Shown here one piece after another: positions 19,191 to 21,818 of a DNA stretch of 39,519 bases. The notes below the pieces were generated by a model. It saw only the letters and a list, made by a program, of their open reading frames with translations. It was not told the DNA's origin and did no database searches. How positions within the stretch are numbered: position 1 is the first letter of the stretch; each line of letters begins with the position of its first letter. A program made the position numbers and the translations under genes. Source of the DNA: Oscillospiraceae bacterium (GTDB taxonomy: Bacteria; Bacillota; Clostridia; Oscillospirales; CAG-272); contig SVSS01000003.1 of NCBI GenBank assembly GCA_015064185.1, positions 175,791 through 215,309 on the forward strand. The letters are read 5' to 3'.

Positions 19191-20527
19191 CAACACCGAT
19201 CGTAGATTTTGTGCGCCGCTATGCTGAAAAAAAGGGCGTACGCTTTCATATGCCGGGGCATAAGGGAAAGCCTTACCTCGGCTGTGAGCACCTCGATATA
19301 ACCGAGATCAAGGGTGCGGATGTTCTCTATGATGCCGCGGGCATTATTGATGAGAGCGAGCAAAACGCCACGGCACTGTTTGGCAGTGCGCACACCTTTT
19401 ATTCTACCGAGGGTGCAACGCTTGCCATTAAGGCAATGCTTGCTACTGTTGCCATGCAGCTGCCGCGCGGGGAGCGACTTCACGTGCTTGCGGCGCGCAA
19501 TGCGCATAAGGCGTTTTTGTATGGCGCCGCGCTGCTGGATGCTAAGGTAACTTGGCTGTATCCAAAGGATACGGCACATCTTTGTGCTTGCCCCCTCTCG
19601 AGGGAGGAAGTGGCAAACGCTATTCGCTCGTGTGCGGAAAAGCCGCATGCGGTGTATCTTACCTCGCCCGATTACCTCGGTAACGTGGCGGATATCGCGG
19701 CGATCGCCGCTGTTTGCGACGGCTTTGGCGTACCGCTGCTTGTTGATAACGCGCACGGCGCGTATCTTAACTTTTTATCTCCCTCAAGGCATCCCATTGC
19801 ATTGGGGGCTACCATGTGTGCCGATTCCGCGCACAAAACGCTTTCTGTTTTAACAGGGGGTGCGTATCTGCACGTGGCAAGAAAGGCACCGGAAGCCTAT
19901 TTGAAGAGCGCGAGGGAAGCACTTTCCCTCTTTGCCTCTACCAGCCCCTCTTACCTCATACTGCAATCGCTTGATCTTTGCAATGCGGTGCTTGCCGACG
20001 GCTATGCCGCGGCGCTTGCCGAAACGGCGGCGCGCGTGGCGGGTGTTCGCGCAGTGCTTCTGGCACACGGCTACCGCGTGCTTGAGGGCGAGCCCTTAAA
20101 AATCGTGATCGAAGCCGCAAAAAGCGGTTACACAGGCGAGGCGCTTGCCGATATTTTGCGTGAAAATGGCATTGAGCCCGAATTTGCCGATAAGGAATTT
20201 TTGGTGCTGATGTGCACCGAGGGGAATGGGGAAGCAGATCTTTTGCACCTTTGCACGGTCTTGTGCAGTGTGCCGCTGCGTGCGGCGCTTCCGCAAACGC
20301 AACCACCTATCATTCGACCTACAACAGGCTTGTCGATAAGGGAAGCGATGCTTTCTCCTGCCGAGTTGGTATCGCTTGAAAACGCGGCGGGTCGCATTTG
20401 TGCCGCTCCCACCGTTTCCTGCCCGCCCGCCGTACCCATTGCGGTGGCAGGCGAGTATATTGATGAGAGTGTTATTGCGCTTCTTCGGCACTACGGCGTT
20501 GATAGGATAAAGGTAATAAAGGAATAA
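19187..20527 (+). CDS. Orn/Lys/Arg decarboxylase-family PLP enzyme (SpeA/YaaO-like)
   Basis: Fold-type I PLP enzyme of the basic amino-acid decarboxylase family, short Gram-positive type; likely makes a diamine or agmatine, but the substrate is unproven. The 446-aa protein has the N-terminal MPGHKG (residues 22-27), the STEGAT segment, D187 (LLVDNAH) for the pyridine nitrogen and the Schiff-base lysine K217 in DSAHKTLS, then VLTGGAYLH. The C-terminal domain is present (GIEPEFAD onwards), so it is not truncated. It starts inside the scfB stop (ATGA), with GGAGCAGG just upstream; a longer frame from 19148 lacks a site. In Bacillus the relative yaaO sits in the tmk-holB-yaaT region, while here holB-ricT is 13 kb away. 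Confidence 0.85.
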   Translation: MTTPIVDFVRRYAEKKGVRFHMPGHKGKPYLGCEHLDITEIKGADVLYDAAGIIDESEQNATALFGSAHTFYSTEGATLAIKAMLATVAMQLPRGERLHVLAARNAHKAFLYGAALLDAKVTWLYPKDTAHLCACPLSREEVANAIRSCAEKPHAVYLTSPDYLGNVADIAAIAAVCDGFGVPLLVDNAHGAYLNFLSPSRHPIALGATMCADSAHKTLSVLTGGAYLHVARKAPEAYLKSAREALSLFASTSPSYLILQSLDLCNAVLADGYAAALAETAARVAGVRAVLLAHGYRVLEGEPLKIVIEAAKSGYTGEALADILRENGIEPEFADKEFLVLMCTEGNGEADLLHLCTVLCSVPLRAALPQTQPPIIRPTTGLSIREAMLSPAELVSLENAAGRICAAPTVSCPPAVPIAVAGEYIDESVIALLRHYGVDRIKVIKE

Positions 20528-20569
20528 AAAAATCCACCGATACAGGGTGTCACTCTAAAGGACAGTTTT
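20526..20569 (+). repeat. Left 44-bp inverted repeat of the AT-rich island
   Basis: It matches the reverse complement of 21765-21808 at 37 of 44 positions with no gap. The outermost 15 bases (seven A then TCCACCGA) and the inner AAGGACAGTTTT are exact. It begins inside the stop codon of the decarboxylase-family gene. Confidence 0.85.
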
Positions 20570-20590
20570 ACCTACCGACAGAAAAAATAG

Positions 20591-20619
20591 AAACCGCAGA
20601 TTGATTTTCTGCGGTTTTT
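20591..20619 (+). terminator. Terminator after the scfB-decarboxylase genes
   Basis: A 10-bp stem (20591-20600 with 20608-20617) with a 7-nt loop and a T run. It is an intrinsic terminator for the upstream genes, even though it lies inside the inverted-repeat island. Confidence 0.75.
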
Positions 20620-20629
20620 GTGTTATAAT
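20601..20629 (+). promoter_or_regulatory. Promoter overlapping the terminator, for the island membrane protein
   Basis: TTGATT (20601-20606), 17-nt spacer, TATAAT (20624-20629). The -35 box lies in the terminator loop and the spacer covers the terminator's right arm. It would serve the gene at 20673. Confidence 0.5.
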
Positions 20630-20672
20630 AGGCGTATGAGCAACTTCTTATGAAATTAAGAGGAGGAACATT

Positions 20673-21140
20673 GTGAAAACAGCAGGAATATGCTTTTTTA
20701 TACTTGGCGGTGTTTTATTATTGATATCGGGATTATATTTTGGTGCTTATTTGATATTTGAAAAATTACCACATAAAACAGGCAGGGCACTTGGCAAACT
20801 GTGCAATAGAAAATACAAAAAAGATGTCGCGGTTTGGGCGGGTTTGGGAAAATATGATGGTCCTCCAAGAATTGCTTTTACCATAAAGCATTTAACAAAA
20901 TCTAAATACCTATATAATGTAAATAACAAACTTTATATTTGTGCTTTTGATTTTTGGAGAAAGCCACACAAAGTACCAAATTGCTCTTGGGTAATTTATC
21001 TAAAATCATTTCCACGAATTTCATATTTAGACAATGATGAGAACTGCATCGGTGCTTTCGACTTTGCTGTTAAAGCGATTCTCTTTTTTGTAATAGCAAT
21101 ATTTTCATTTTGTTTGGGATTTGCATTTCTTAGTCCGTAA
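20673..21140 (+). CDS. Two-TM membrane protein of unknown function in the AT-rich island
   Basis: Not recognised. The 155-aa protein has an N-terminal hydrophobic helix (about 4-31), a basic and aromatic middle domain (about 32-130, rich in K, Y, W and N) and a C-terminal hydrophobic helix (about 131-153), giving a small bitopic or hairpin topology. It starts with GTG, supported by AGGAGG 6 nt upstream; no ATG fits. The codon use is strikingly A/T-rich (AAA, ATT, TTT, TAT) next to the GC-rich neighbours, which points to horizontal acquisition. It sits inside the 44-bp inverted-repeat island, upstream of the DUF559 element. It could be cargo, an immunity or defence accessory, or a decaying passenger. 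Confidence 0.7.
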   Translation: MKTAGICFFILGGVLLLISGLYFGAYLIFEKLPHKTGRALGKLCNRKYKKDVAVWAGLGKYDGPPRIAFTIKHLTKSKYLYNVNNKLYICAFDFWRKPHKVPNCSWVIYLKSFPRISYLDNDENCIGAFDFAVKAILFFVIAIFSFCLGFAFLSP

Positions 21141-21209
21141 TATCACCATAAACTACATTGATTTTCTCGACAAATCTCGAATTGCTGAAAAACGAGAACG
21201 CAAATTACT

Positions 21210-21265
21210 AAAAGCCTCCCTTGTGTAAAGGGAGGTGGCACGCGTAAGCGTGACGGAGGGATTGT
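21210..21265 (+). repeat. Left terminal inverted repeat of the DUF559 element
   Basis: About 55 bp, imperfectly inverted at 21611-21665. The outer arm (CTCCCTTGTGTAAAGGGAG) is itself a short palindrome and is nearly exact in both copies. An inner hairpin (CACGCGTAAGCGTG here, TCAGCGAAGCTGA there) differs in sequence but keeps pairing, a compensatory pattern. The GGAGGG of this repeat serves as ribosome binding site for the gene that follows. Confidence 0.85.
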
Positions 21266-21266
21266 A

Positions 21267-21635
21267 ATGCAGAGAAAACACAATAATGATATTGTACCAA
21301 CCGCCAAAATGTTGCGAAAGAATATGACCAAAGAAGAAAAGCACCTTTGGTATGATTTTCTGCGTACTTATCCTATTCGTTTTTCTCGTCAGAAGGTTCT
21401 CGGAAGGTATATTGCGGATTTTTACTGTGCAGAGGCAAAGCTCGTTATAGAGCTTGACGGTTCGGGACATTATACCGAGGAAGGAAAGCAGTACGATGAA
21501 GAAAGAACAGCTTTTCTTGAAGAATACGGATTGACAGTTATCAGAATACCAAATACGGAAATACATAAAAACTTTCGGGGTGTTTGTGAATATATTGATC
21601 GCCTCGTAGAACAATCCCTCAGTCAGCTTCGCTGA
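21267..21635 (+). CDS. DUF559 (Vsr-like/PD-(D/E)xK) endonuclease-domain protein
   Basis: The 122-aa protein matches the DUF559 family, distant relatives of very-short-patch-repair endonucleases; the substrate is unknown. Visible landmarks are LRKNMTKEEKHLWYDFLR near the N-terminus, RFSRQKVLGRYIADFYC with D51, and LVIELDGSGHY with E62, D64 and H68, the presumed metal-binding core, then a VIRIPNTEI segment and FRGVCEYID. The gene fits exactly between two inverted repeats: GGAGGG of the left repeat is 6 nt before the ATG, and the last residues and the TGA are encoded inside the right repeat. This suggests gene and repeats move as one unit. AT-rich relative to the host. Confidence 0.88.
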   Translation: MQRKHNNDIVPTAKMLRKNMTKEEKHLWYDFLRTYPIRFSRQKVLGRYIADFYCAEAKLVIELDGSGHYTEEGKQYDEERTAFLEEYGLTVIRIPNTEIHKNFRGVCEYIDRLVEQSLSQLR

Positions 21636-21665
21636 CAGCTCCCTTTACACAAGGGAGCCTTTTTT
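21611..21665 (-). repeat. Right terminal inverted repeat of the DUF559 element
   Basis: Inverted counterpart of 21210-21265. It contains the stop codon of the DUF559 gene (21633-21635) and ends in a GGGAGCCTTTTT sequence that also looks like a terminator for that gene. No convincing target-site duplication was found outside the pair. Confidence 0.85.
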
Positions 21666-21679
21666 ATGTTCATCTATGC

Positions 21680-21761
21680 CTTGTCAATTTTCCTGACAAG
21701 CACTGCATTTGCGTCCACAAACGCAAAATACGGCGTACCTCTTCCGAGATATGCCGTATTT
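21680..21761. repeat. Cluster of three adjacent hairpins
   Basis: Three perfect stems occur in a row: 21680-21686 with 21694-21700 (7 bp, 7-nt loop); 21708-21714 with 21721-21727 (7 bp, 6-nt loop); 21726-21734 with 21753-21761 (9 bp, 18-nt loop). The third also works as a terminator for the shikimate-kinase-like gene on the minus strand. The cluster joins directly to the right 44-bp inverted repeat, so it may be part of a dispersed palindromic unit. Confidence 0.7.
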
Positions 21762-21764
21762 TTG

Positions 21765-21808
21765 AAAACTGTCCTTAAGAGCAACGCTCTATGTCGGTGG
21801 ATTTTTTT
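21765..21808 (-). repeat. Right 44-bp inverted repeat of the AT-rich island
   Basis: Partner of 20526-20569 (37/44 identical when inverted). It ends 10 nt from the stop codon of the shikimate-kinase-like gene, so the island sits exactly between two convergent genes. Confidence 0.85.
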
Positions 21809-21818
21809 ATAAATGGTA

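Follow-up and report, generated by a model that had tools for sequence, protein, structure and literature searches.

Among described systems, those closest to the element considered here are the REPIN/RAYT systems (REPtrons and TIRtrons), in which hairpin repeats occur as inverted pairs and in many gene-free copies, and frame the gene of an enzyme. In these systems each repeat family is matched to a clade of the enzyme (PMC3116915, PMC3733652) and RAYTs are described as single-copy entities (PMC3116915). The stretch of DNA analysed here, called the window throughout, comprises 39,519 nucleotides from an Oscillospiraceae bacterium (GenBank assembly GCA_015064185.1, contig SVSS01000003.1, positions 175,791 to 215,309 of the forward strand) and lies on contig C14 of a 1.53-Mb genome (G000). 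It contains a unit in which a DUF559 (PF04480) gene is packed between inverted hairpin arms. The recurrence of this package, with and without its gene, in many gut bacteria suggests a mobile element that uses a nuclease and not a known transposase.

The gene-free copies have the REPIN trait of two inverted hairpin repeats separated by a short spacer and present in many copies (pairs of 112–137 bp). However, the enzyme here is a nuclease with a predicted Vsr fold, where RAYTs are HUH Y1 transposases; each arm consists of two hairpins plus a tail, and the framed gene is multi-copy. No HUH Y1 transposase gene was found framed by the arms: the framed gene is PF04480, and the one RAYT in the genome is located at another place that lacks these arms. 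Since RAYT REPINs are defined by an HUH transposase and the framed gene does not encode one, the unit is not filed among them. The EDxHD homing endonuclease I-Bth0305I appears to offer a parallel in its Vsr-like fold and in the filled and empty alleles of a single site, but the DUF559 gene lies between hairpin arms. The linkage of DUF559 to repeats likewise sets the present case apart from Vsr and from VsrA of Caulobacter. Palindromic repeats without a known dedicated transposase do have a counterpart in the CGTC-tagged REPs of Proteobacteria, which are reported to lack one (PMC3733652). Within open-licence PMC text, no paper was found that ties DUF559 to the present repeats or to inverted repeats.

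A DUF559 gene packed between double-hairpin arms

The left arm (21213..21266, + strand), delimited by repeat search, covariation and folding, comprises hairpin 1 (CTCCCTT at 21216-21222 pairing with AAGGGAG at 21228-21234), hairpin 2 (CACGC at 21239-21243 pairing with GCGTG at 21248-21252) and a tail whose Shine-Dalgarno sequence GGAGGG (21255-21260) stands six bases ahead of the ATG at 21267. The 122-aa DUF559 gene (21267..21635, + strand), encoding a predicted Vsr/EDxHD-type nuclease fold, extends into the right arm (21611..21661, − strand). There the tail ACAATCCCTC (21611-21620) is followed by hairpin 2 (GTCAGC at 21622-21627 pairing with GCTGAC at 21631-21636), which includes the TGA stop codon (21633-21635), then by hairpin 1 (CTCCCTT at 21639-21645 pairing with AAGGGAG at 21651-21657) and a T run. 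The arms are 90% complementary between 21210-21240 and 21633-21663, and 93% between 21251-21265 and 21611-21625. A sequence-only reading of this DNA had described a gene fitted exactly between imperfect inverted repeats that supply its ribosome binding site and stop codon, with an inner stem that differs in sequence yet pairs and with no transposase inside, and the present analysis bears it out on all these points.

Both arms follow one plan: hairpin 1 (CTCCCTT-loop-AAGGGAG, the arms reading G(G/C)CTCCC), hairpin 2, whose sequence is unlike between the arms while the pairing is kept in each, and the tail. In an alignment of 47 of the 64 distinct arms, taken from both sides, hairpin 2 covaries strongly, with 76 both-side-changed cells against 22.5 +- 3.6 in shuffles; nearly all of the signal resides there, and the almost invariant hairpin 1 contributes little. 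Folded as single-stranded DNA, the window arms reach z = -5.3 and -5.6. A gene-free copy reaches z = -7.4, both hairpins of both arms being predicted to form and the two tails to pair. Searched at the gathering threshold over eight loci, Rfam gave a single match, Gut-1 in L181, and none to the arms.

The DUF559 protein consists of a single domain, computed to be under purifying selection, and its candidate catalytic residues are invariant. Its predicted fold, Vsr-like with conserved acidic and histidine residues, comes nearest to 3hrl (a sequence relative), to the homing endonuclease I-Bth0305I and to Vsr. EDxHD enzymes have a Vsr-like core, and the fold comparison is in line with this.

Framing was scored in 83 close relatives, namely the 80 top-ranking of the 385 that a search of named genomes yielded, and three copies of the window genome. 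With an inverted-flank score of at least 20 required (the top score in 20 shuffles per locus was 14), 76 of the 83 are framed, L096 among the seven others being cut by a contig end, against none of 399 other open reading frames (ORFs) of at least 120 aa at the same loci. A second rule, under which the score has to exceed the top one of 30 shuffles by at least 4, gave 74 of 81 (the 80 and the window copy) and again 0 of the same 399. The hosts of framed copies include rumen and gut Clostridia metagenome-assembled genomes, Flavonifractor (L101) and Butyricicoccus (L102), and the sequences flanking the framed units are unlike among loci.

In a wider sample of the family, framing includes arms of other sequence built on the same plan, such as CCTTCCCC..GGGGAAGG..GGATGAGG and CTCTCCC..GGGAGAG..GGAGAGGG; there are others too. 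Arm family tracks the protein tree, with three changes, the minimum for four arm families, against a shuffled mean of 11.7, on a tree with few columns and with near-copies, which favour such clustering. This tree holds 137 proteins (87 rows labelled by arm family, 50 unlabelled); 14 framed loci are without a label, having arms outside the four types or a matched stretch without the tail.

Gene-free copies and alleles with and without the unit

When 98 family genomes were scanned with a covariance model (R1) of the arm, arms were found in 63 of them. Up to 59 matches occur per genome, a count that saturates, with at most 61 candidates scored in each. The 21 convergent gene-free pairs that were read span 112–137 bp and each combine one GGGAGG-type with one GGGAGC-type arm; these pairs of about 120 bp share the polarity of the gene-bearing unit, and gene-free copies are also present in other genera. 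The 30 best arm loci yielded 22 convergent pairs, ten of which enclose DUF559 (412–460 bp) and twelve only a short spacer (118–137 bp), while the remaining arms are divergent, truncated where a contig ends, or have no partner in the sequence that was read. The sequence-only reading had proposed a search for the repeat without the gene, and had named repeats around unrelated genes, if equally frequent, as a refutation: gene-free copies exist, and among the 22 pairs another gene lies between the arms in none. Arms were found in 42 of the 46 genomes with DUF559 and in 21 of the 52 without it (Fisher odds ratio 15.5, p 8e-8; Spearman 0.63), figures that, like the tree test, are uncorrected for relatedness.

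One locus provides alleles with and without the unit. In the window the unit sits inside a larger element with a cargo gene, described below, and locus L293 of genome G006 carries the same cargo element but has one 23-bp hairpin, GGCTCCCTTTACACAAGGGAGCC, where the window has the 0.45-kb unit. Identity between the two is 545 of 621 aligned positions to the left of this place and 100 of 113 to the right. No alignment extends over the last bases ahead of the unit, which number 37 in L293. L046, which has the unit, matches L293 right up to it, at about 90% identity on each side, so that window and L046 represent the occupied state of the site and L293 the unoccupied one. For a target-site duplication at the inner unit there is one allele pair to go by, and the hairpin is common to both alleles. 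In other copies of the larger element the same slot is taken by a bare hairpin, by the arms without the gene, or by repeats of a different family. At a gene-free copy on contig C15, composite flanks yielded no clear empty site.

An outer element in the loop of a host terminator

The unit is nested within a second inverted repeat (20524-20569 and 21765-21810) that was absent from the sequence-only reading. An outer element of about 1.25 kb (20541..21793), whose two ends are inverted sequences like TCTAAAGGACAGTTTT / AAAACTGTCCTTAAGA (AAAGGACAGTTTT-type), occupies the loop of an intrinsic host terminator (20526-21808), splitting its stem; both stem halves are kept, AAAAAAATCCACCGA on the left (20526..20540) and TCGGTGGATTTTTTT on the right (21794..21808). 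Its left end, the hairpin of which is weak in the window copy (z -1.2), carries a promoter-like site, TTGATT-17-TATAAT (20601..20629, + strand), read directly from the sequence. The 155-aa cargo ORF (20673..21140, + strand) has no Pfam match at E 0.1; relatives of it occur in L046 and in L293, the latter sharing 133 of 154 aligned residues. The sister species G015 has an empty site at the same intergenic place, AAAAAAATCCACCGA-TACG-TCGGTGGATTTTTTT, and an equal one, AAAGAACTCCTGC-CAGG-GCAGGAGTTCTTT, for a second outer copy. No clear target-site duplication is visible at these two sites, the comparison being one between species.

In 24 outer elements the bases that immediately flank the two ends pair with each other inside one copy (mean score 14.3, lowest 9, against 7.9 +- 1.9 between copies), and in 16 of them the own flank pairing beats every mismatched one; the flanks themselves are mostly unlike between copies. 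A search blind to DUF559 found 12 two-ended outer elements outside the window genome, of which 11 are flanked by pairing bases (score at least 11). Nine of the 12 lack DUF559, and a role of DUF559 as cis enzyme of the outer element is rejected on this ground. Because just three of the 12 carry DUF559 (these three are also among the 24), the outer element is regarded as a separate, non-autonomous-looking traveller with variable cargo. Insertion into terminator loops gives it a site that spares neighbouring coding sequences.

Within the genus, the right arm mostly keeps a constant position, about 125 nt ahead of the outer right end. In the window, the unit most likely arrived inside the larger element; this corrects the sequence-only reading, whose view of the unit as compact is supported. 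Elsewhere, 34 loci have both arms and neither end of the outer element. Inner units were not seen to occupy terminator stems themselves: at 39 loci where the outer right end was not found (L037, L038, L053, L059 and L067 have the left one), the flanks score 5.2 for complementarity, and mismatched pairs of flanks 4.9.

Some further copies of outer-type ends were encountered. On contig C2, a Gut-1 RNA (RF01706; L181 555-631) lies a few hundred bases from such an end, and in L297 an outer-type right end is found directly 3' of what by eye is the C-terminal part of an apparent large serine recombinase. Contigs C13 (end of L018) and C3 (start of L002) overlap within another outer-element copy, whose cargo gene resembles a Nudix hydrolase by eye; as this overlap indicates, the assembly breaks at outer-element repeats.

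What may move the arms

Given the conserved structure and exact packaging of the unit, its copies with and without the gene, and arm families that follow the protein clades, we consider it rather likely that it is a mobile palindromic element of REPIN type with a Vsr/EDxHD-type nuclease, and not a RAYT, as its dedicated enzyme. Its mobilisation, and the binding, cutting, direction and mechanism of copying that this entails, we infer. The arms, alone (about 120 bp) or with the DUF559 gene between them, would become single-stranded on the lagging strand or extrude as cruciforms. The nuclease would then recognise the double-hairpin structure and cut near the hairpin, at the end of an element or at a bare hairpin-1 site, and repair templated by a unit-bearing copy would fill the break with the unit or, in trans, with a copy that lacks the gene.

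Several observations weigh against a dedicated nuclease. Only three of the five DUF559 copies in the window genome are framed, whereas the sequence-only reading had required framing throughout a genome; the copies on C5 and C7, about 60% identical to that of the window, are unframed. So are 31 of the 69 loci read from the 99 matches of the family sample (38 framed; 26 of 56 once the 13 that also belong to the 80 are removed), and all 15 standalone relatives examined among 30 loci fetched from a phylum sample, where most are distant, L358 is strong and L359 is truncated by the start of its contig. Framing as a universal trait of Pfam DUF559 is rejected on the latter count; because unframed copies occur in the window genome and in the family sample, it is assigned to certain DUF559 clades. 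Five genomes without a DUF559 match have at least 10 arm matches (G081 55, G096 51, G102 59, G115 28, G089 14), and the gene may therefore be lost or dispensable. The missing correction for relatedness counts on the same side, and the L293 pair could reflect either insertion into a hairpin or precise loss by slippage between hairpin-1 copies. As to the two unframed copies themselves (G000:C5:734-1078, L004, and G000:C7:110098-110442, L005), by eye each is preceded by a hairpin and a promoter-like site of its own and followed by an arm pair that is of another type and encloses no gene.

The arms could instead be a REP or MITE (miniature inverted-repeat transposable element) family moved by a RAYT in trans or by an unknown transposase, with DUF559 a captured passenger that has its own job in mismatch repair or defence, which we regard as unlikely though worth taking seriously. 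The window genome does have one RAYT (C10, L180 767-1315), Y1_Tnp matches occur in 10 of 21 genus genomes, and the arm-rich genomes without DUF559 fit a passenger, as do its Vsr-type predicted fold and the proposal that a Caulobacter DUF559 protein acts in repair (PMC12907096). Yet a one-mismatch scan of seven RAYT/Y1 loci found the arm motif in none, and RAYT is rejected as the matched enzyme; the palindrome in the RAYT gene of the window genome is a different one, of GTAG type; several arm families, unlike in sequence, share one plan, each paired with its own DUF559 clade; and the 22 convergent arm pairs enclose no other gene. In that RAYT-like gene, the GTAG-type palindrome lies in the reading frame.

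The constant place of the right arm and the clear empty sites of the outer element would also agree with a unit that, in this lineage, does not move by itself and is carried by the terminator-loop element and ordinary recombination only. This seems improbable to us, as the two-arm loci without either outer end, the gene-free copies in other genera and the nine outer elements lacking DUF559 all speak against it. Least credible of all, and in our view very improbable, is that the arms are merely a ribosome-binding leader and a terminator whose likeness is regulatory: the left tail is a good Shine-Dalgarno sequence and right hairpin 1 with its T run reads as an intrinsic terminator, but arms of both sides covary, their matches number up to 59 in a genome, and gene-free pairs whose spacer is too short for a gene disfavour it.

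Beyond this lineage, inverted framing was found at 8 of the 14 DUF559 relatives read (of 22 matches) in plasmid and phage records, from Novosphingobium, Sphingomonas, Sinorhizobium, Deinococcus, Pseudanabaena and a gut phage, against none of the 15 in the phylum sample. Some such genes lie inside conserved operons, for example sufB-sufC. More tentatively, then, and with somewhat less than even confidence, DUF559 proteins may serve a class of mobile palindromic DNA that is distinct and spans phyla, as nucleases that recognise the double-hairpin arms in folded form and copy these into other hairpins, terminators for instance; bacterial REP-like repeats would then have a second, HUH-independent origin.

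Single DUF559 genes lie between conserved genes in L338-L340, L342 and L351, the slots being sufB/sufC, NAD(P) transhydrogenase subunits, a place upstream of dnaG (Sphingomonas) and, in Deinococcus, two different slots of hpa genes on the opposite strand. In L341 the gene is framed by CCCTCTCCCC..TAGGGTGAGGGGC repeats and in L350 by CCCCCTAAATCCCCCAATTCTGGGGG repeats, presumably abundant in Proteobacteria and Cyanobacteria, respectively. At E. coli sapF-ycjD-fabI (L352), degenerate GC-rich hairpins, which we take to resemble BOX C, lie 3' of the DUF559 gene ycjD, and no inverted pair frames that gene. At least 80% of the ycjD query locus is held in 3361 of 5426 genomes; ycjD is rejected as a clean test case, the four ycjD-less genomes read having efflux genes there and no empty site.

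If DUF559 does move the arms, a domain of unknown function would acquire a role, and a likely enzyme could be named for many palindromic repeats that are so far unexplained. The system would then allow tests of how hairpin DNA is spread by an enzyme that lacks transposase chemistry.
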